Of a stretch of DNA of 64,000 nucleotides, positions 3 to 8,782 are shown piece by piece. The stretch is taken from contig BEHX01000006.1 in NCBI GenBank assembly GCA_002898295.1, positions 1-64,000 of the forward strand, in the 5' to 3' direction. Within the stretch, counting starts at the first letter, position 1. Every line of letters begins with the position of its first letter. The position numbers and the translations under genes were made by a program. The notes beneath the pieces were generated by a model that worked only from the letters and a program-made list of their open reading frames with translations, searched no databases and was not told where the DNA came from. Source of the DNA: a bacterium HR21 (lineage in GTDB: Bacteria > Bacteroidota > Ignavibacteria > Kapaibacteriales > HRBIN21).

Positions 3-1388
3 TTCGAGGATGATGAGCGGCTCTATCCCTCTGAGTGCTGGCGTTGGGGAGCAAGGTGGAGATGGCTTGCCCGCCATCGCTATTGGGATCAGATACGCCA
101 CGAGGTAGACAGCGTATGGAAAGAGGTGCGGCAGCACTCGCTTTCTGGAGCGGCAGTGTGCTTTTATGGCTTTGTGCTTGCGCGCCGGTGGGACAAGGCT
201 GCGGAGGCAGGGCAAGCTCTCCTCGAACGTATGGAGGAACGTGCTGATCTCCCGTGGAGCCTTCTCGCGGACCTCCTCTCCCACATCTGGCTCATCCTTC
301 CAGCAGGCGATCCGCAGGCGGAACGGAGTGCCGCGCTAGTTGCTGCTCTCTGGGCTCGTTTTCCTCTGGAGCTGGGAGCTGAAAAGCGCCTGGGAGATCA
401 AGATGTTGTCCCGGAGCTCTTCCGCCAAAAGAGTCTTCGGCATTACCGGACTATCCTGGATGGTTGGGCACGTTGGTTCCTGGCAGAAGGAGAAGAAGAG
501 AAGAGGCGTGTCTGTGGGTATGCCTTGGTTGCAGCCAGGAGACTTCTTGAGTGGGAAGCTGATACGGTGCTGGCGGTCAGGCTTCTGAGGCGAGGGGGTG
601 AATTAGTCGAAGGAATGCCCGAGGAGAGCGCTCCTGGATGCGGAGTAGAGCTTGCCCTCAGTGTGCTCGAGCCAGGACGGGAAAAGCTAGGGTGGACGAG
701 CTCTCTCTGGCTAGAGTTGGGGAAAGTGCTTCTGGCGCAGAACTCACCGGAGGGAGAGCTATGGCTGCGGAGGGTAGCCGAGCTGCCCTTGAGAGACGAA
801 ACCAGAGGTGCCATTTTTCAGGCGTGTTATTGGCTTGGGCAGAGGTATGCTGAGAGGCAAGATAGGGATAGCGCCGTGAAGTACTGGGCATGGATGCAGC
901 AGCTCAACGATAGGCATCCACTCGTGGATAGCCTCTGGCAGCAGCTTCGGGAGTCATTTTCGCTGCGGGCAGCATCGCGCACAACTCTTATCCGCCGCTA
1001 CCCGTACGTCAGCAGCCGGCAGCCGGTTCCCCCCATTGTGACAGTGGATGGAAAGGTACTCGAGCCTGCGCGGATGTCCAAGCCTACCGTGTTGTTGTTC
1101 TCGTCCAGGGAGTGCGGCTTGTGCAAGCTATGGTATCCGGTGCTTTTGGCAGAACTGGCAAAGCGACGCCTGTCGCCGATGGTTGTGGTCGTCAGCCCGG
1201 ACAGTGTACTGGAGCCGATTCCATCGGCTCTCCCACTTAAGCACGCCCTGCTCACACGCGAACTCTCTGCTGCCTACCAGGTCGTTGCGTTTCCTACGGT
1301 GGTGGTTGTGCAAGGCGAGAACGTCGTGTACAGAGGCTCGCTTGCCTCGTGGGGGCATGTGCAAGCGGTCATTGCCTCCGTTCGTTGA
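3..1388 (+). CDS. Secreted/periplasmic protein with C-terminal thioredoxin-like domain (5' partial)
   Basis: The frame is open from the first bases of the window and encodes plausible protein there, so the gene begins upstream; a GTG at 126 is probably internal. The first ~330 visible residues are mainly helical and rich in Leu, Ala, Arg and Trp, with a TPR-like look (for example the YAERQDRDSAVKYW stretch), but I cannot assign a family. The last ~110 residues look like a thioredoxin/TlpA fold: a strand (TVLLFSS), then RECGLC with a CxxC pair encoded at 1113 and 1122, then a helix, and later a VVAFPTVVVV strand carrying the usual cis-Pro context. It is followed after 20 bases by repeat copy 1. 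The C-terminal thioredoxin-like arrangement matches the gene at 1915-3918, so it is probably the last gene of another unit of the same system. Confidence 0.75.
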   Translation, partial: FEDDERLYPSECWRWGARWRWLARHRYWDQIRHEVDSVWKEVRQHSLSGAAVCFYGFVLARRWDKAAEAGQALLERMEERADLPWSLLADLLSHIWLILPAGDPQAERSAALVAALWARFPLELGAEKRLGDQDVVPELFRQKSLRHYRTILDGWARWFLAEGEEEKRRVCGYALVAARRLLEWEADTVLAVRLLRRGGELVEGMPEESAPGCGVELALSVLEPGREKLGWTSSLWLELGKVLLAQNSPEGELWLRRVAELPLRDETRGAIFQACYWLGQRYAERQDRDSAVKYWAWMQQLNDRHPLVDSLWQQLRESFSLRAASRTTLIRRYPYVSSRQPVPPIVTVDGKVLEPARMSKPTVLLFSSRECGLCKLWYPVLLAELAKRRLSPMVVVVSPDSVLEPIPSALPLKHALLTRELSAAYQVVAFPTVVVVQGENVVYRGSLASWGHVQAVIASVR

Positions 1389-1408: not shown

Positions 1409-1537
1409 ACAGGGTTACCACTGGTCATATTCGTATGGGAGCAGGGGCTCTGCTGGAGCAGCGGAAGCTGAGGGCGCTCTCCCGGCGCCGGTGCCGGAGG
1501 CGGACGCGCTCACGGCGGGGCGGCGCCGGTCCTGCTC
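1409..1537 (+). repeat. GC-rich repeat copy 1, candidate structured leader RNA
   Basis: First of three homologous intergenic elements, each just before a small secreted-protein gene. Visible structure: a CATA-TTCG-TATG tetraloop hairpin (1426-1437), a closing stem GAGCAGG (1439-1445) with CCTGCTC (1531-1537), and an inner 8-bp stem CCGGCGCC (1482-1489) with GGCGCCGG (1522-1529). It ends 58 bases before the small gene's start. Substitutions between copies show no third-codon-position bias, which argues for RNA or DNA function over coding. I do not recognise it as a known riboswitch. Confidence 0.7.
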
Positions 1538-1595
1538 TCAGTTAGGATGCCACCAAGTAGGGACTTGATGTTCTACTAGAGGACGGAGGGTACCG

Positions 1596-1949
1596 ATGAA
1601 GGTGCTGCTTGTTGTGGCGGGGGTAGCTCTCGCTTCAGCTCTCGTCAGCGCCAGGACTATCATCATTGTGAAGGTGAATGGTGGGCCATCGGGCTTCAAC
1701 CGGGTTTCCGAAGTCCACACAGAGAATGAGTCAAAGCTGACGTGTTACGGCTCTGGGAGTACGGCATGTGAGTGGACGGTCAAACCGCAGCTGGTTCGAG
1801 GATACCCACGGCTTATTGAGTACGCGGAGACCCAGATTGCTGAGGGTAACCTTGTCGGGACCTACACGGAGATGATTGACGGGGTCCCGTGCACCGTGCG
1901 GTGGGAAGCGCAGGATGTATACAACGCGGAAATTGTTCTGGAGGATTAG
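1596..1949 (+). CDS. Small secreted Cys-containing protein, unit 1
   Basis: A 117-residue protein with a clear signal peptide: M-K, a hydrophobic stretch of Val/Ala/Leu to about residue 18, and a likely cleavage after VSA. The mature part has three Cys; two lie in a CYGSGSTAC pattern, the third near the C-terminus. The stretch YAETQIAEGNLVGTY, followed by G and V-x-W-x-A, matches YALSQIAAGNLRGEW in the product at 6522-6935, so the two are paralogues. The start is supported by GGAGGG at 1585-1590, five bases upstream. It follows repeat copy 1 and overlaps the large gene downstream. No known function; a secreted peptide or substrate handled by its large neighbour is an inference from the arrangement. 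Confidence 0.8.
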   Translation: MKVLLVVAGVALASALVSARTIIIVKVNGGPSGFNRVSEVHTENESKLTCYGSGSTACEWTVKPQLVRGYPRLIEYAETQIAEGNLVGTYTEMIDGVPCTVRWEAQDVYNAEIVLED

Positions 1950-3918
1950 GCGAGTGGTAGCACCCCTGGGGGTAGCTCTGTTGGGGCTATCCCCAGGGTA
2001 TGCACACACAGTATGCTCAGGAAAACAGCATTGGTGGTTGCCAGGAGAGGAGGTGTTTCTGGCTCCGCAGCTGGTATTGCTTTCCGAAGCGCGAACAGCG
2101 ACTGTCGGGGTGGTAGATTCGCTTCTGTGGTGGTATCAGCCGAGCACGGATCGTCGAGGATTACACATCTACTGGTTTTCCCTCCCCTCCCGTACCTTGC
2201 TCCGGCGGGAGCTCCTTCCATTCCCTCGAGTGCAAGTCTCGCCATCGGTGGTCCGACGTATTCTCATTGGTATCTCCCCGCAGGAGCTCTTCCCTAGCTC
2301 TCCGCCGGAGCGGCAACGACAGTGGGAAAAGTGGAGGCGAGAGATTCTCCAGTGGAGCGACTCGGCGATCCGGCGGGCGTGGACAAAGGAGCGGTGGACA
2401 ACAGATCCCGGAGGCATAGGTCGGTGCGCCGTGGATGTCACCGCAAGCCGTGCTGCTGCTGTTCTCCGGCGTGTTGTGGAATTCCTGGCGATATGGAAGC
2501 GTGTGGCGGGGAGATGGCATCTTGACACGGTGCTTCCGTGGGAAGGTGTTGTGGACGGAATCCGATTTCTCGACAGCGCAACCTTAGCCGTCTGGGGGAC
2601 AGCCAAGGTGGGGCGGTATGTCCCGTACACTTCCCTGGCGCTTCTCTCCCGCACTCTCCAGGGATGGAGGGTACAAAGGCAGACGTTGAGGAATCCCGAA
2701 GGGCTGATTTTTACGGTGTTTTTGCCTCGCCAACTCATGGATGTGTCCAGGCGGTGGGTTGTCATTGCTGAGCCGATTCGGTATCGGCTTCGACTCTATC
2801 CGCTCCGTTCGGTAGAGGATTCTGTCGTTCTCGAACGTATGCCGGCTGAATGGCGCGCCGTCGGTGATACGGCATATGTGCTGTTGGACCGTGATCCTTA
2901 CCGAGCCGACCTCAAGGACCTGATGGACCTGGTTCGGGGACAGGTGTATAGCGCCTCGTCCATTCAGTCGGTAATGTTTCTGGACGATACGACCTTGAGT
3001 GTTCGTTGGTATACTCGTCAGCCTCTCCCGCACGATTCCGGGACGCTCCTTGAGCGGACAAGCCGGCAAGGATTCCTCACAGCGATGGACATCTGGCAAT
3101 ATCGGTTGGGAAGATGGGAGCTTCTGGATAGTAATCTGTGCCCGCCGAATCCATCTCTACACCATCACTTCGTGCCTCTGCTACATCCGCTGGGATTGGA
3201 GAGTTACTGTGATGGACGGGGCAACTGCTTTACGCCCATACAGCTTGCTCCAGGCGTTCGACCACAAGATTACACCTATGGTGAGTTGAAGCGGCTGCTA
3301 GAGCACCATGCTCGCGAAAATGATTCCGTGCTCATCGGCATGGTCTGGCATCGGTGGCAGGGAAAAGCTGAGGTGCACGGGGGCACAGGGAGGCGACAAG
3401 ATGCCGTTGGCGAGAAAATCTCCATCCACTATCCTGAGAATGATCGCCAGAATGATCGCCGATGGCGTGCGGTCACTCTTGCTGGGGATACTCTTGATGT
3501 GGCGACACTTGCCCGGGTTGTTGCTGTGGTTTTCCTTTCCGGCTCCGTGTGCCTTGAGTGTATTCCTGAAGTGGTACAGTTTCTGCGGTCTCGTACTGCT
3601 CAGGATCGGAAGGTGCGGTGGGTGGCACTGTGCTTGGCTGGTCCCGGAGCAGTAGAGCGGCGTAGCTATATCCAGAGCGTCCGAGAGTACCTTGGAACTT
3701 CTCTCCGGTGGGTTGTTGCCTTCGATTTATGCGAGGGAGGTTCCCTTGCGCGCCATGATCTGCCCGAAAGGTTGCCGTGCCGCTGGTGGGGCAAGCTCCG
3801 CATTCACCGGACTCCTGCTGCAGCTCTCTTCCGCAATGGACAGCTCGTGCACTTTTGGCGGTTTGAAGATTTGGGGCTGACGTCCTGGGCAAGGGGAGGA
3901 GGGGGCAAGCGGAGGTAA
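1915..3918 (+). CDS. Large exported protein, propeller-like with C-terminal thioredoxin-like domain, unit 1
   Basis: About 667 residues. The start chosen (ATG 1915) gives a good signal peptide: KLFWRIRR, then a hydrophobic stretch ending in GYA. A GTG at 1954 with GGAGG at 1940-1944 is an alternative with a better ribosome site. The middle part is rich in Trp, Arg and short beta-strand-like segments and resembles the large proteins at 4706 and 6994; a beta-propeller is likely but not proven. From about residue 525 a thioredoxin-like domain follows: AVTLAGDTLDVATL, a hydrophobic strand, then VCLEC with Cys at about 546 and 549. It overlaps the small gene by 35 bases, so the two are probably co-translated. 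Confidence 0.75.
   Translation: MYTTRKLFWRIRRVVAPLGVALLGLSPGYAHTVCSGKQHWWLPGEEVFLAPQLVLLSEARTATVGVVDSLLWWYQPSTDRRGLHIYWFSLPSRTLLRRELLPFPRVQVSPSVVRRILIGISPQELFPSSPPERQRQWEKWRREILQWSDSAIRRAWTKERWTTDPGGIGRCAVDVTASRAAAVLRRVVEFLAIWKRVAGRWHLDTVLPWEGVVDGIRFLDSATLAVWGTAKVGRYVPYTSLALLSRTLQGWRVQRQTLRNPEGLIFTVFLPRQLMDVSRRWVVIAEPIRYRLRLYPLRSVEDSVVLERMPAEWRAVGDTAYVLLDRDPYRADLKDLMDLVRGQVYSASSIQSVMFLDDTTLSVRWYTRQPLPHDSGTLLERTSRQGFLTAMDIWQYRLGRWELLDSNLCPPNPSLHHHFVPLLHPLGLESYCDGRGNCFTPIQLAPGVRPQDYTYGELKRLLEHHARENDSVLIGMVWHRWQGKAEVHGGTGRRQDAVGEKISIHYPENDRQNDRRWRAVTLAGDTLDVATLARVVAVVFLSGSVCLECIPEVVQFLRSRTAQDRKVRWVALCLAGPGAVERRSYIQSVREYLGTSLRWVVAFDLCEGGSLARHDLPERLPCRWWGKLRIHRTPAAALFRNGQLVHFWRFEDLGLTSWARGGGGKRR
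1964..1998 (+). terminator. Stem-loop just after small gene 1, inside signal-peptide codons of the large gene
   Basis: CCCTGGGGGTAGC (1964-1976) pairs with GCTATCCCCAGGG (1986-1998): 13 bp with one G-U pair and a 9-base loop. It begins 14 bases after the small gene's stop, as similar hairpins do in units 2 and 3. There is no T-run, so it is more likely an attenuator, translation-control stem or RNA-stabilising element than a full terminator. Confidence 0.55.
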
Positions 3919-4060
3919 TTGAGTCGCATCGGGCATGGCAGGCATAAGGGGTCGGCGTAGCGGCATTCAAATCACGTCAATGTGAGGTTGAAACGAGCAG
4001 TTGTGGAATGGCTTCAGCAGTGGGCGTGCCTCCCTGTCGGCAGGGAAGGTGAGCGTGCAG
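3919..4060 (+). other. Intergenic stretch before repeat copy 2
   Basis: Together with repeat copy 2 this makes a gap of 316 bases between genes. The only structure I see before the repeat is a small perfect hairpin, TCCCTG-TCGG-CAGGGA at 4031-4046, without a T-run. No RNA gene or convincing promoter is visible here. Confidence 0.4.
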
Positions 4061-4193
4061 ACAGAGTCAGTTACCACCGATCATATTCGTATGGGAGCAG
4101 GGGCTCTGCTGGGGCAGCGAAAGCCGCGGGCACTCTCCCGGCGCCGGTGCCAGAGGCGGACGCGCTCACGGTGGGGCGGCGCCGGTCCTGCTC
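4061..4193 (+). repeat. GC-rich repeat copy 2, candidate structured leader RNA
   Basis: Second copy. It keeps the CATA-TTCG-TATG hairpin (4082-4093), the closing stem GAGCAGG (4095-4101) with CCTGCTC (4187-4193), and the inner stem CCGGCGCC (4138-4145) with GGCGCCGG (4178-4185). Similarity to copy 3 continues past the repeat for about 60 more bases, through the ribosome-binding region and the first codons of the small gene. Copy 1 loses similarity at the end of the closing stem. Confidence 0.7.
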
Positions 4194-4234
4194 GTGAGCC
4201 AAACGGGAATGTCCCACAGGAGCTTGGCAAAACC

Positions 4235-4633
4235 GTGCGGTGGTCCATTGTCGCAGCAGCTCTGCTGTTCGTTACCCTGCAGACTAAGGCACAGCATATT
4301 GCGCGGGGAAAGGAGGATGTGGAGTGCGTTCCTCCGGAGGACAGGATATGCCGGATAACGTATTTCGATGGCTGGCAACTTATCGAGCGCGGGCATCCGA
4401 TCGTCGTTTCGCGACCTGGCAACATCACTGTCCCCGAAGGGTGCCCTTCCGAGACCTCCCAAGAGGCGACAGCAATGTTTGTCTTCACCAACCCCGATAA
4501 CCCGGACGAGGGCGTCGGGTGGATCAATGCACACATATGCTCGGGAGAGCGGAAGGCTGTTGTCTATCTTCTCGACCAGACGCGGGAGTACCGTTCCTAT
4601 GAGGAGTGGCAACAGGCTCTTCCACAGCGTTGA
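4235..4633 (+). CDS. Small secreted Cys-containing protein, unit 2
   Basis: A 132-residue product starting at GTG 4235. The homologous position in unit 3 is an ATG at 6522 within nearly identical sequence, which supports this start; the frame is open further upstream through the repeat, but that part is judged non-coding. A signal peptide (RWSIVAAALLFVTLQTKAQ) is followed by a mature region with four Cys. The mature sequence is not clearly similar to the unit 1 and 3 proteins, except for being small, secreted and Cys-bearing. It lies between repeat copy 2 and a strong hairpin, then a large exported protein. Function unknown. Confidence 0.7.
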   Translation: MRWSIVAAALLFVTLQTKAQHIARGKEDVECVPPEDRICRITYFDGWQLIERGHPIVVSRPGNITVPEGCPSETSQEATAMFVFTNPDNPDEGVGWINAHICSGERKAVVYLLDQTREYRSYEEWQQALPQR

Positions 4634-4645
4634 GGGAAGTCCTCT

Positions 4646-4672
4646 GGGGGAGGAGCATCCCGCTCCTCCCCC
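4646..4672 (+). terminator. Perfect 11-bp stem-loop between small and large gene, unit 2
   Basis: GGGGGAGGAGC (4646-4656) pairs perfectly with GCTCCTCCCCC (4662-4672) around a 5-base loop, followed only by TTG. It begins 13 bases after the small gene's stop and lies 33 bases before the large gene's start. It is terminator-like without a U-tract and could lower expression of the large gene relative to the small one. Confidence 0.6.
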
Positions 4673-4705
4673 TTGTGTACGTACAGCAGGCGTGGAGGAG
4701 AAACC

Positions 4706-6307
4706 ATGCAGGTGATTTTCCCTTTGGGTGTGCGAGTTCTCGCATGTGGTGCGGTCTTCACTATCGGGCAGGTATTCGCTCAGTCGGACACTGCCAGAGC
4801 TGTTGTGACGTGGCTCCACCGTGTGGCACAGCAGCTGGAGGATTTCGATCCCCGGCGTCCGACAGTGCTCTTCTGCGCAACTCTCTCCGATGCTGTGCAG
4901 TGTGGTGGGACCGGGATCAATGTTTCGCTTGAACGCATCAGGCGGCTCCGCCTGGAAGCGAATGTAGCTGTGGCTCTTGCCTGCGATGTCGAGGGTGAGG
5001 CAGGGGTTGTCCGCACGGAATTCGCCACCTCGAACATTATCGAGGTCACCGATGGGAGTCTCCAGCAGCTCTTCGGGAGGGTGATTTTTCCCTCAGCGCT
5101 GATCATCGCTCCTGATGGGAACATACTGCGGTACCACCCCGCTCCTTTCCACAATCCGCTCACGCCAGAACTCCTACTTCGGTACCTCCGGCCGTTGCCG
5201 AGAGAGCTGCGGGGTGGACGCCCGCTCCGGGCTTTGGGGAAGCGACCGTTATTGGAAGTGGGGAGTGCGCTAGAGAGAGCCTCGGGAGATGTCCTCCTCG
5301 TTGATGGGGTGCAGAAAGTGCTCTTCAGCCTTGACCCAGAGCAGGCAACCTGCCGTCTTCTCTGGAGCCCCTCTGATTCCCTGCGTTACCACCCGGCGCT
5401 GCAGCTCTCGGAGGTTCCTGAGACCTTTTGGCGCAGGATGCGACAGAACGATAGACGACCGCTCGTTGCTATCGAACACCTTCTCCGGAATTCTGCTGAC
5501 ACATTGGAGGCTTCAGCATACCTTCTGACCGCAGAGCACGTTGAGAAGGAGGGACAGTCTGGATGGAGCTTTTGGCGGCGTGCTGCCTTTGTCATGCTCC
5601 GGCTACGGGATGGGGATGCAGAAGTTCTTTCCGTCAACTTGAGTCCCCCGATAGCTCCCTCAGGGTACACAGTAGGGCATTGGGGAGGCGGCTATGAGAG
5701 GGAGGATACAGTCTGGTTCTTCTATGGCACTGAGCGGGGCTGGGAGCGGCTTCCTCTTCCGTGCAACTCGTCGGGAATCGCCAAGAAGGTCACAGCGGAA
5801 GTCTTCGTGATGGGGTTTTCTGCCGGGATGTTCAGCGTGTTTTCCCCGAAGCTACAAGCCATTCAGTGGTTCCAGCTCTCGGGAGAGACAGCGAGGATCC
5901 GTGCGGAAACCAAGCCGGGAGGTGCTCTTCTGCAGCTCCTCAGCCGTTTTGATAGCCTGGCGCAGGTGAGCTATGCTGAGGGAGTGCGTATTGCTCGTGA
6001 GATGGAAATTCACGAGGAGCCAACGGTTCTGGTAAAGCTGCCACTGCAGACCTTCGTATGGAAGGATTCCGTGCTCTGTATCTCCCTATCAGAGCTCAAG
6101 GCGAAGAAGCTGACCCTCCAGAGCTACGTGCCGAGAGGGCTCGAGGCAGAGCAGGTGCTCACTCTTGAGCCTCCGAATCCGGAGAGCGAACTCGTTGCCC
6201 TCCACGTTGTTCCAGTAACCGGGCGCAATGCGCTCGCCGTGCTGGGTAAGTGGAAGCCTGAGGGATGGTACGTGTACTGGCTGCCGATGGAGGATGACGA
6301 GAGATAA
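4706..6307 (+). CDS. Large exported protein with N-terminal thioredoxin-like domain and propeller-like region, unit 2
   Basis: About 533 residues. The start at ATG 4706 has GGAGG just upstream and gives a signal peptide ending near VFAQ. Residues ~45-160 resemble a thioredoxin-like fold: strand PTVLFCATLS, a second Cys eight residues on, then IFPSALIIAPDGNILRYH, where Phe-Pro and the following strand match the cis-Pro region. There is no CxxC pair. The remaining ~370 residues look like a beta-propeller (for example LLVDGVQKVLFSLDPEQ) and resemble the proteins at 1915 and 6994. The order of the two domains is reversed relative to unit 1. Activity as an oxidoreductase is uncertain because of the missing CxxC. 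Confidence 0.75.
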   Translation: MQVIFPLGVRVLACGAVFTIGQVFAQSDTARAVVTWLHRVAQQLEDFDPRRPTVLFCATLSDAVQCGGTGINVSLERIRRLRLEANVAVALACDVEGEAGVVRTEFATSNIIEVTDGSLQQLFGRVIFPSALIIAPDGNILRYHPAPFHNPLTPELLLRYLRPLPRELRGGRPLRALGKRPLLEVGSALERASGDVLLVDGVQKVLFSLDPEQATCRLLWSPSDSLRYHPALQLSEVPETFWRRMRQNDRRPLVAIEHLLRNSADTLEASAYLLTAEHVEKEGQSGWSFWRRAAFVMLRLRDGDAEVLSVNLSPPIAPSGYTVGHWGGGYEREDTVWFFYGTERGWERLPLPCNSSGIAKKVTAEVFVMGFSAGMFSVFSPKLQAIQWFQLSGETARIRAETKPGGALLQLLSRFDSLAQVSYAEGVRIAREMEIHEEPTVLVKLPLQTFVWKDSVLCISLSELKAKKLTLQSYVPRGLEAEQVLTLEPPNPESELVALHVVPVTGRNALAVLGKWKPEGWYVYWLPMEDDER

Positions 6308-6357
6308 GGACCTCGGAGGGCATGGTGTTGAAGGCACCGGTGGTGACACTGTCCGGG

Positions 6358-6480
6358 ACAGGTTCCCACTGGTTCGTGTGGGAGCGGGGGCTCTGCTGGG
6401 GCAGCGGGAGCCGAGGGCACTCTCCCGGCGCCGGTGCCGGAGGCGGACGCGCTCACAGCGGGGCGGCGCCGGTCCTGCTC
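6358..6480 (+). repeat. GC-rich repeat copy 3, candidate structured leader RNA
   Basis: Third copy. The first hairpin has changed sequence but is still paired: TCCCAC (6364-6369) with GTGGGA (6378-6383) around a loop holding TTCG. The closing stem keeps pairing because GAGCAGG became GAGCGGG, where G pairs with T(U) of CCTGCTC (6474-6480). The inner stem is CCGGCGCC (6425-6432) with GGCGCCGG (6465-6472). These pairing-preserving changes are the main evidence for a folded RNA. Confidence 0.7.
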
Positions 6481-6521
6481 ATGAGCCAAACGGGAATGTT
6501 CCACAGGAGCTTGGCAAAACC

Positions 6522-6935
6522 ATGCGGTGGTCCATCGGTGCGGTAGTCCTGGCAATGCTGGTGGTGCAGGGACCTGAGGCAGGTGCGTACTTCAAGCGGG
6601 TTGTCAATGACTGCGACTGGGATGCAAAGCGTGGGACTATTTGCAGTTACGTCAGGGTTCTCCGGACAGATAGAGACACGGACATTTGGTGCGAGAATCC
6701 AGGGCTAGAGCCTTGCCCGCAGAAAGCGGTCAAGCAGCGAGAGGACGGGAGCGAGGCTGTGGATGCAGATGAGCAGCGGTGTGTAGACTATGCGCTCTCC
6801 CAGATTGCTGCAGGGAACTTGCGTGGAGAGTGGCAAGATCCCGGCTCGGGAAAGCGGGTGGTGTGGACTGCAACAGCACCACAGGGCGGGAGCTCTACCA
6901 TCAAAGTCTGGGGACCCGACGAGCAGGAACCGTGA
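6522..6935 (+). CDS. Small secreted Cys-containing protein, unit 3
   Basis: A 137-residue product from ATG 6522, with AGGAG at 6505-6509. A signal peptide (MRWSIGAVVLAMLVV, cleavage near EAGA) precedes a mature part with five Cys, two of them in CENPGLEPC. The YALSQIAAGNLRGEW stretch followed by V-V-W-x-A aligns with the unit 1 small protein, so these are members of one family. It follows repeat copy 3 and is followed by a strong hairpin and a large propeller-like protein. Function unknown; secretion is supported by the sequence, a signalling or substrate role is inference. Confidence 0.8.
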   Translation: MRWSIGAVVLAMLVVQGPEAGAYFKRVVNDCDWDAKRGTICSYVRVLRTDRDTDIWCENPGLEPCPQKAVKQREDGSEAVDADEQRCVDYALSQIAAGNLRGEWQDPGSGKRVVWTATAPQGGSSTIKVWGPDEQEP

Positions 6936-6942
6936 AGTATCT

Positions 6943-6971
6943 CCCCGGGGGAGTGGAGCTCTCCCCCGGGG
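6943..6971 (+). terminator. Perfect 11-bp stem-loop between small and large gene, unit 3
   Basis: CCCCGGGGGAG (6943-6953) pairs perfectly with CTCCCCCGGGG (6961-6971) around 7 bases. It begins 8 bases after the small gene's stop and ends 22 bases before the next start codon. It has no U-tract. Same position and style as the hairpin of unit 2. Confidence 0.6.
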
Positions 6972-6993
6972 TAAAGCCTGCACAGGAGGGAGG

Positions 6994-8271
6994 ATGATGC
7001 GGAGGACGCTGCGGCTTCTTTACGGGAGCGTGGGGATGCTTGCGAGCGTGGGTGCAGGGATAGCACAGGAACGGACTCCTGGGTGGATTGAGCGTGTCCA
7101 CTTTGTACCGACCGGGATTGAGCGCAACGATATCCGGTTTGGGCGGCAGTGGTGGAATATGCTCGCGGTCAGTGGAGAGCATGCCTGGCTATACCTGCCC
7201 TCGTGGCGGGAGGATGTGGAGCGGTGGGAGGATGACACCTTGCGCTTCCTGCGCTTCCGGCTCTCTACCGGCGTGTGGGACACGGTGTATGGTATCGCTC
7301 CTGGACTCTCGCGCTGGCTAGTGCGCCCGGCACCGGCGTTTTTCGATATCCGGGATTCGCTGCTCATGCTTGGTTTTGTCGGTCCGGACAGGAGTCCGGA
7401 GCTCTTCGTAGTACAGGGCATCGTTGGGAGGGATTCGCTGCGGGGGATTCGCTGGAGGCAGGTGACGTTCCCCGAAGATCCGCGGAGGTACGAGTACGCC
7501 CGGATTGTGTCCGGGAGGGCAATTGTGTTCGGCAAGTGTTATCGCCACAATCCCGCTGCGGATTCGGGCAATGTCGGTTTCCTCCTGCTGGAGTGGGAGA
7601 CACTTCGGAGCAGGGCGCGGCGGGAGGTGCGTGGGCTGCGAGGAATGGAACTGACACACTTTGGACCGTCCCGGCTCATTGATGCGCGCGGGGAGTGGAT
7701 TGCGCTGGTTGAGCCGGGCACATACACGGTTGTGCTCTACGACACAGCGCTGCGGGAGCGTTATCGGATTCGTCGCACTCCGCCCCAATGGCGGCAGATT
7801 CCACTCGATACGCTGCGGAAGTATGCACAGCAGGGTGGGGTCAAGCAGCTCATTCGTGCAGTGGAGCCATACGTCTACGCCGGCAGCCGCATCGAGATGG
7901 TGTGCTTCCTCGATGAGCGGCACCTTCTGCTCCGATACACAGCGCCAGCAAGTACAGAGGGAGCTATGGCAGACGAGCGCTGGGGCTACGACATCTGGCG
8001 CTTAGAGGAAGACACCGCAGTGCTGGTGGCAGCAGATCTCGACGAGCGCGCCCCGGCAGAGGGTGAGATTCCGACTCCTCAGTGGCCATCCTTGCGGTGG
8101 ACTCTCCCAGTGGCGGATTTTCCCTGGGTTGTTACTCTGCGGGCAGATGCCCCGATTGACTGGGTGGGGAAGCCATCGCAGGAATACTGGCGAGAGCGGG
8201 AAGAGTACGCCAGAGAGCACGAGGCAGAATATGTCGTGGAGATTGCTCGCCTGCGGGTACCTCTGCGGTAA
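6994..8271 (+). CDS. Large exported propeller-like protein, unit 3
   Basis: About 425 residues, starting at ATG 6994 (or 6997) behind GGAGGGAGG. The signal peptide has MMRRTLRLLYG, then a short hydrophobic stretch ending near GIAQ. The rest has repeated short strands with Trp and Gly, such as SGEHAWLYLPSW and RGEWIALVEPGTYTVVLYD, and resembles the non-thioredoxin parts of the proteins at 1915 and 4706. I infer a beta-propeller, probably periplasmic or surface-exposed. It has no thioredoxin-like domain; that is encoded separately by the next gene, which overlaps its end by 41 bases. Confidence 0.75.
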   Translation: MMRRTLRLLYGSVGMLASVGAGIAQERTPGWIERVHFVPTGIERNDIRFGRQWWNMLAVSGEHAWLYLPSWREDVERWEDDTLRFLRFRLSTGVWDTVYGIAPGLSRWLVRPAPAFFDIRDSLLMLGFVGPDRSPELFVVQGIVGRDSLRGIRWRQVTFPEDPRRYEYARIVSGRAIVFGKCYRHNPAADSGNVGFLLLEWETLRSRARREVRGLRGMELTHFGPSRLIDARGEWIALVEPGTYTVVLYDTALRERYRIRRTPPQWRQIPLDTLRKYAQQGGVKQLIRAVEPYVYAGSRIEMVCFLDERHLLLRYTAPASTEGAMADERWGYDIWRLEEDTAVLVAADLDERAPAEGEIPTPQWPSLRWTLPVADFPWVVTLRADAPIDWVGKPSQEYWREREEYAREHEAEYVVEIARLRVPLR

Positions 8272-8782
8272 GCTGGCGCTCCTCTTTGCGGGTACGGCTC
8301 CGAATGTGGGGCGGTGGCAAGTCTTGGACGTGCGCGGTGATACCGTGGAATTGCTCCCGGGTGGCGTTGAGCACGCGCTCGTGCTCACGCATACACGCTA
8401 CACTTGCAGCGCGTGTTATCAGCACTTTGGGGATTCTCTCCGGGGCTGGATGCGGATGCTGGATACGGCAGCGCGGCTGCCGGTGCTCCTTGTAACAGGG
8501 GCTGCCACAAGCGGTTTTGGGCGTCGGACCGTTGCACGGTGGATGCGTGCCCTCTGCCCGGTGATTACAGAGGTGCGCTTCGCTTTCCCCGGCGGGACGC
8601 TTCCGGAAGCGCTCCGGGAAGCATTACAGCAGGATCGGTTTGTGATTGCCTACTGCCACCGTGGAGGCTGCGAATGGGTAGTCGCCTACGAGCGGCTGGA
8701 ACGCTCGGCTGTTGAACGCCGGCGCTTCCTCGAGCGGCTTGCACAGGCTCTCAGAGGATTCTCAGCTAGGCGTGGACCGTGA
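8231..8782 (+). CDS. Thioredoxin-like exported protein, unit 3
   Basis: A 183-residue product overlapping the propeller gene by 41 bases, which suggests translational coupling. The N-terminus (SWRLLACGYLCGKLALLFAG) is hydrophobic and could be a signal or anchor; LLAC also resembles a lipobox but the stretch before it is too short to be sure. CSAC then gives a CxxC pair, followed by a helix and the strand VLLVTGA. Later YCHRGGCEW carries two more Cys. Unlike units 1 and 2, the thioredoxin-like part is a separate polypeptide. It ends 29 bases before the convergent polA. Confidence 0.65.
   Translation: MSWRLLACGYLCGKLALLFAGTAPNVGRWQVLDVRGDTVELLPGGVEHALVLTHTRYTCSACYQHFGDSLRGWMRMLDTAARLPVLLVTGAATSGFGRRTVARWMRALCPVITEVRFAFPGGTLPEALREALQQDRFVIAYCHRGGCEWVVAYERLERSAVERRRFLERLAQALRGFSARRGP

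Follow-up and report, generated by a model that had tools for sequence, protein, structure and literature searches.

We identified a run of three consecutive gene cassettes near the start of contig BEHX01000006.1 of bacterium HR21 (Bacteroidota; Ignavibacteria; Kapaibacteriales), in the 64,000-nt stretch that we analyzed and hereafter refer to as the window (G000:C6:1–64000). Each of the three units, which together fill positions 1414–8782, consists of a leader repeat, a gene for a small secreted protein, a strong hairpin, and a gene for an exported large protein with a thioredoxin-like part or partner. We put a probability of roughly 0.5 on the reading that these are accessory secreted-protein cassettes in which a leader RNA exerts control, the hairpin favors the small protein, and propeller and thioredoxin partners act on the small protein. 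We showed computationally that the gene order recurs, that the parts are homologous, that the genes are coding and under purifying selection, that the leader has helices which a diverged copy retains, that hairpins are enriched, and that the array is accessory. Throughout, coordinates without a contig label are window positions, G numbers are genomes (G000 being HR21), and L numbers are loci taken for comparison.

A first-pass annotation, made from the sequence alone, had proposed a three-unit array in this region; the array is there, and the evidence for it is stronger than was claimed. The same annotation described one order repeated three times. Homology of the proteins holds for units 1 and 3, which have homologous small genes (BLASTP, 3e-5) and homologous large proteins (3e-10), and fails for unit 2, whose small and large proteins each belong to a separate family unrelated to those of the other units.

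Recurrence and accessory distribution of the cassettes

Profile searches with the small-protein family of units 1 and 3 (family S) found members in ~20 genomes besides HR21, all belonging to its class; homologues of small protein 1 come from ~20 genera. Two phylum-wide samples yielded no credible member outside the class. Weak matches occur in G201 and G232, where the cassette is absent, and a weak match in G165 contains stops. Outside HR21, ~18 of the 23 small-gene loci have the small gene followed by a propeller gene, either by itself or with a gene for a CxxC protein after it. The order small protein, propeller, thioredoxin-like protein on a single strand is present in L040, L042–L045, L078 (twice), L079–L081, L085, L087, L091, and L094. 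Variants of the cassette are found in L041, L082, L083, L084, L086, and L092, and exceptions to the order in L047, L088, L089, L090, and L093. Our search of related genomes thereby bore out the recurrence of the order, at ~20 loci of the same class that belong to other genera and families.

A six-member profile joins every cassette propeller except the first one of L045, with E values from 1e-38 to 4e-5 on a scale of 100,000 sequences. Where relatives encode the thioredoxin-like partner as a separate protein, it carries a CxxC motif, as read in the sequences. The pair formed by small protein 2 and large protein 2 was found again in another family, at L084, with the small-protein homologue (L084:2264–2602; E 1e-12) immediately 5′ of the large-protein homologue; further homologues of large protein 2 are encoded at L039:9457–11088 and in L082 and L083.

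Several neighboring features were recorded at these loci. The family-S genes of L088 and L090 lie just 3′ of a carboxylase gene, not 5′ of a propeller gene. At L045:4261–4530, before another propeller/CxxC pair, lies a gene outside family S whose secreted product has 89 aa and two Cys residues (CVGTGTC). A 13-bp hairpin comes after this gene, which represents one more type of small protein within the same architecture. Genes with sigma-70 region 4 (extracytoplasmic function-like) accompany cassettes at L042:6920–7432, L086:4507–5028, L039:12529–13191, and L010:12711–13595; such a gene lies directly 5′ of the small gene in two loci and downstream in L039 and L010. These neighboring sigma factors suggest that the cassettes are under transcriptional control as well.

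HR21 itself carries further units on contig C2. In a second array (C2:126353–131087), units 1 and 2 each have a paralogue, arranged as in the window, with large proteins 45% (large protein 1; paralogue at C2:126702–128693) and 34% identical to those of the window. A fourth leader-bearing unit starts at C2:293091–293276, where the leader precedes a gene for a small Cys-rich secreted protein, a strong hairpin, and a gene for a TlpA-like protein. This protein clearly matches AhpC-TSA and Thioredoxin_8, and its CarboxypepD_reg match falls narrowly under the cut-off.

Downstream of polA, five congeners have genes for an AsnC-type regulator, glutamine synthetase, RecX, and an OmpA-type protein, and no cassette is present; because the site is empty in these genomes, the array is accessory. 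HR21 carries the same polA-linked block where C2 ends on the right, and there the genes for RecX and glutamine synthetase are separated by the inserted leader/TlpA unit. Synteny with the congener block indicates that the right end of C2 probably adjoins the left end of the window, in which case cassettes were inserted at two nearby sites and break up a block that the congeners have intact. The protein at the left edge of the window has a congener homologue at L046:2449–4308 (E 1e-109). In G002, the locus of the second array retains a homologue of this left-edge protein, and the unit-1 large protein survives there as no more than a broken remnant (L046:7057–7425), which contains three in-frame TGA codons. 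A tyrosine-recombinase-like open reading frame (L039:5220–6239) adjoins the second array in HR21 and was not seen at the matching place in G002; this gene may have to do with mobility.

Table 1. Features of the cassette array and its left edge, in window coordinates.
Feature	Position	Strand	Remarks
Protein with C-terminal thioredoxin-like domain (CGLC)	3–1388	+	5′ end missing at contig start
Leader copy 1	1414–1537; RNA core 1435–1539	+	93% identity with copy 2
Small secreted protein 1	1596–1949	+	Family S; 117 aa; 3 Cys
Large protein 1, exported, propeller-type N part and C-terminal domain with CLEC	1954–3918	+	GTG start; GGAGG upstream
Hairpin 1	1964–1998	+	16-bp stem; inside signal-peptide codons of large gene 1 (RNA fold)
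Leader copy 2	4060–4245; RNA core 4091–4195	+	Extends into first codons of small gene 2
Small secreted protein 2	4235–4633	+	GTG start; second family; 132 aa; 4 Cys
Hairpin 2	4646–4672	+	11-bp stem; between small and large gene
Large protein 2, exported, N-terminal thioredoxin-like domain (degenerate site) and second domain	4706–6307	+	
Leader copy 3	6373–6532, or to 6551; RNA core 6378–6482	+	Extends into start of small gene 3
Small secreted protein 3	6522–6935	+	Family S; 137 aa; 5 Cys
Hairpin 3	6943–6971	+	11-bp stem; between small and large gene
Large protein 3, exported propeller-type	6994–8271	+	AlphaFold2 model, all-beta
Exported thioredoxin-like protein (CSAC)	8231–8782	+	Gene start overlaps propeller gene end

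The leader as a probable structured regulatory RNA

The three leaders of the window had been annotated as homologous repeats, and they are 93% identical across their shared 124–160 nt. The description needs one amendment: copy 1 is conserved over the core only, whereas copies 2 and 3 continue through the start codon of the small gene. Elsewhere in the 1.83-Mb genome there is just one strong copy, that of the fourth unit, which is 71% identical. A diverged fifth leader (L039:8800–8898) precedes the unit-2 small gene of the second array, and each of the five leaders in the genome, four close and one diverged, lies immediately 5′ of a small secreted gene. Leader copies stand 41–59 nt upstream of start codons in a single orientation, and no repeat was seen at the far end of the unit.

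We built an RNA model from the four close copies. Copy 1, which was among those used to build the model, scored 118.5 bits; the next-best match was the diverged leader, matched over L039:8797–8899 at 25.5 bits (E 0.014, 96 kb searched). As the diverged leader was not listed in a whole-genome search with the same model, it is a weak match by itself, and its position 5′ of a small gene is part of the argument. Additional model matches in L099 and L100 fall inside genes and look like chance. Searched against Rfam, the window and related loci returned only tRNAs above the gathering threshold, with nothing credible for the leader even at E 5.

We also considered the leader as a coding N-terminal extension of the small protein. 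Its frame is open in copies 2–4, and copy 1 has a stop. Changes between copies number 40, 46, and 30 at codon positions 1, 2, and 3, with no third-position excess. Because changes are spread about evenly across the three positions despite the open frame, we rejected this candidate and regard the leader as noncoding by this measure.

The helices that we propose for the leader are P1 (GAGCAGG/CCTGCTC), P2 (GCTCT/GGGGC), and P3 (GGCAC/GTGCC), together with a long-range 8-bp helix, CCGGCGCC/GGCGCCGG, that pairs the P3 loop with the linker preceding P1. Since this helix crosses P2 and P3, it would belong to a pseudoknot or else to one of two mutually exclusive folds. Each of these folds is stable, and the lower-energy one differs from copy to copy. 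Every close copy forms the full set of 25 pairs, compared to 39–55% with slid partners, although most pairs are invariant. Variation among the close copies consists of one double change (G-C to A-U in P3) and four one-sided changes; a U-G to U-A change is seen twice in P2.

The diverged leader retains every proposed helix in different sequence: P1 as GGTGGGA/TCCCACC, P2 as TCCGC..GGGAAG/CTTCCC..GCGGA, and P3 as TGCC/GGCA. In total, 30/30 pairs form, against a maximum of 22/30 in shuffles (n = 2000), a figure that overstates the case in that these helices were picked by inspection. In place of CCGGCGCC/GGCGCCGG, the long helix of the diverged copy is CCGGCACC/GGTGCCGG, which is no longer palindromic, so that pairing can be separated from direct repetition. 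Folding of single sequences is unremarkable for their composition in 3 of 4 copies, and the case for structure therefore rests on comparison. In our view, unlinked loci probably have this leader in common as a structured regulatory RNA, a point that the first-pass annotation had not made.

A second, unrelated leader family is present in G063, a genome from another family of the order. This leader of 215–280 nt occurs in ~15 copies, which are clustered and have no sequence relation to the HR21 leader. The copies precede genes for exported proteins: two cassettes of family S, several further pairs of a small and a large gene, and genes for large exported proteins that stand alone. Changes are again even across codon positions, and the predicted fold has almost no covariation. 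The G-tract of this leader (L078, L118–L123) varies from about 3 to 12 G and is a possible slippage site. The existence of this family argues that shared leaders are a repeated solution and not an accident of one array, while their sharing in G063 may also reflect duplication.

Hairpins are enriched between small and large genes

Hairpins had been placed just after the small genes in the first-pass annotation. This is accurate for hairpins 2 and 3, which are intergenic; hairpin 1 is inside the large open reading frame because small gene 1 and large gene 1 abut. A hairpin was present at 6/6 small–large junctions examined in the HR21 genome, twice inside the signal-peptide codons of the next gene. 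The paralogue of large gene 1 has its hairpin at the same place with a different sequence. As hairpin sequences differ freely, position and strength are what is conserved. Among gaps of at least 40 nt, an uninterrupted stem of at least 10 bp is found in 12/18 small–large gaps, compared to 5/33 control gaps, that is, the other co-directional gaps of the same loci (Fisher p 3e-4).

Small secreted proteins and their putative partners

The three small proteins each have a hydrophobic N-terminal segment and contain 3, 4, and 5 Cys residues, respectively, as first described. Relative to their paralogues (that of small gene 2 at L039:8948–9367), nonsynonymous divergence (pN) is well under synonymous divergence (pS), at 0.33/0.73 for small gene 1 and 0.43/0.72 for small gene 2. 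This indicates that the small genes are real and that, judged by these ratios, both are coding and under purifying selection. AlphaFold2 models small protein 3 as beta strands, one helix, and beta strands (predicted local distance difference test [pLDDT] 88.8, predicted template modeling score [pTM] 0.77). The product had been taken for a short peptide; it is instead predicted to be a compact globular domain of ~95–115 aa beyond the signal segment. The family has no match in Pfam or among PDB sequences, and the model has no credible match among PDB folds (best E 0.17).

Large protein 3, a putative propeller, is modeled fairly confidently as all-beta, with a pLDDT of 78.6 and a pTM of 0.82. The solved structure closest to this model is the exported Bacteroides fragilis protein BF0058 (4raa; E 5e-7), and further solved matches are mainly propellers at low TM-score (<0.6), with 3s9j (DUF4221) at E 2e-5. 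Because 4raa and 3s9j share only ~10% identity with large protein 3, at TM-scores of 0.43–0.51 comparable to those of other propellers, the resemblance is one of fold class, not of family. The propeller family has no match in Pfam or PDB sequences, and a search of NCBIfam with the propeller alignment and the window's own proteins gave no credible match.

Among the window proteins, CxxC motifs are present in 3–1388, 1954–3918, and 8231–8782, and a degenerate site in 4706–6307; Pfam matches are weak or absent. The left-edge protein matches Thioredoxin_2 weakly (7e-4, under the cut-off). The CSAC protein has no Pfam match; its CxxC motif, signal-like N terminus, and position agree with those in other cassettes. 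In large protein 2, the first Cys of the thioredoxin-like site is lost (DAVQC, compared to STCFAC in the paralogue), and the copy in the window may bind without redox activity.

Discussion

We propose to read the array as an accessory island built from secreted-protein cassettes. Each cassette transcript would begin with a structured leader RNA at its 5′ end, through which several unlinked units would be controlled together. The first gene product would be a small exported, disulfide-capable globular protein. The hairpin, after the small gene or just inside the next gene, would lower the expression or stability of the downstream message, and its position and conservation suggest that far more small than large protein would be made. 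The propeller-type and CxxC proteins may then partner the small protein outside the cytoplasm, through binding, disulfide maturation, or anchoring. We infer the leader and hairpin steps from anatomy and conservation, and the partner step from linkage alone.

Several observations weigh against this proposal. The hairpins have no T-run and so are not standard terminators. Most of the thioredoxin-like domains fall under Pfam thresholds, with the clear match coming from the large protein of the fourth unit on C2. The HR21 leader family is known from one genome, with none found by blastn in 99 genomes or by the RNA model in 123; short blastn matches were seen in G003 and G020. Finally, leader covariation rests on five sequences, and the four close copies alone do not exceed shuffles (120/500).

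The main rival is that the small protein is an effector or signal, acting on other cells or on self, and that the propeller/thioredoxin pair is its cognate immunity protein or receptor, protecting or sensing. The presence of several paralogous units per genome agrees with this, as do their gain and loss among congeners and the broken remnant in G002. We nonetheless consider such a role improbable: no toxin or signal family matches, thioredoxin-like proteins would be unusual as immunity proteins, and selection on the small genes is purifying, with no sign that they evolve faster than the large ones (56% vs 45% identity).

In Bacteroidota, NVEALA peptides adjoin 6-bladed propeller and TlpA-like proteins, and the first-pass annotation linked the array to these systems. 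As an analogy this is reasonable: both arrangements set a small exported Cys-containing product beside an exported propeller and a thioredoxin-fold protein, and the solved folds closest to large protein 3 include Bacteroides exported proteins (4raa, 3s9j). That the cassettes are a diverged branch of the NVEALA arrangement with the same role is, however, unlikely. NVEALA (PF14055) was found in 0/99 genomes of the order, HR21 included, at E 0.01, with a positive Bacteroides control. DUF5128 (PF17170), which we take to be the 6-bladed propeller family that the annotation meant, matched no cassette propeller in 12 genomes, with weak matches elsewhere in four. The cassettes also differ in having a globular small protein, a structured leader, and an intergenic hairpin. 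The NVEALA link is thus analogy only. Among the papers searched, none dealt with NVEALA or with the small-protein/propeller/thioredoxin arrangement.

We give still less credence to the leader being a recombination or insertion site that shuffles cassettes and is conserved by gene conversion and not by RNA function. It would account for leaders that are 93% identical in front of unrelated proteins and for units at insertion sites absent in five congeners. Yet copy-to-copy changes preserve the base pairs, as does a double change seen in the diverged copy, and the fixed distance range and orientation of the copies, with no repeat at the far end of the unit, fit poorly with this idea. Alternatively, an operon and its promoter region may simply have been duplicated in tandem, in which case leader and hairpins would have no special function. 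This fits an array of paralogues and a congener that lost most of a related locus, but we consider it very unlikely, given that unit 2 shares the leader while neither of its genes is homologous to those of units 1 and 3, that hairpins of different sequence recur at the same place across genera, and that an unrelated leader is similarly shared in G063.

Our proposal of leader- and hairpin-controlled cassettes has partial parallels in known systems. In lantibiotic operons, a stem-loop separates the precursor gene from the modification genes. The cassettes similarly place a hairpin between a small secreted product, presumably abundant, and its large partners; they differ in having Sec-type signals, no enzymes for ribosomally synthesized and post-translationally modified peptides, and no sequence relation. 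The leader resembles riboswitches and other cis-regulatory leaders in being ~105 nt long and structured, in having two exclusive folds or a pseudoknot, and in serving unlinked operons, whereas it has no Rfam match and the genes downstream are not metabolic.

On a wider and more tentative view, to which we give a little under even odds, the cassettes would be a class-wide secretion or maturation system, with a secreted globular protein of new fold and dedicated propeller and thioredoxin-like partners, in which lineage-specific families of structured leader RNA (at least two unrelated ones, of about 105 nt and 215–280 nt) act as common regulatory tags of whole groups of unlinked secreted-protein operons. 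The set of families appears to be undescribed: the small protein, the propeller, and the leader have no Pfam or Rfam family model, even though cassettes in this order are spread across a bacterial class. The paired units are ready candidates for assays of protein–protein binding and RNA switching. The cassettes allow a test of the role of the small-protein/propeller/thioredoxin neighborhoods that remain enigmatic in this phylum, and of whether bacteria coordinate secreted-protein operons that have no common coding sequence by means of shared structured leaders.
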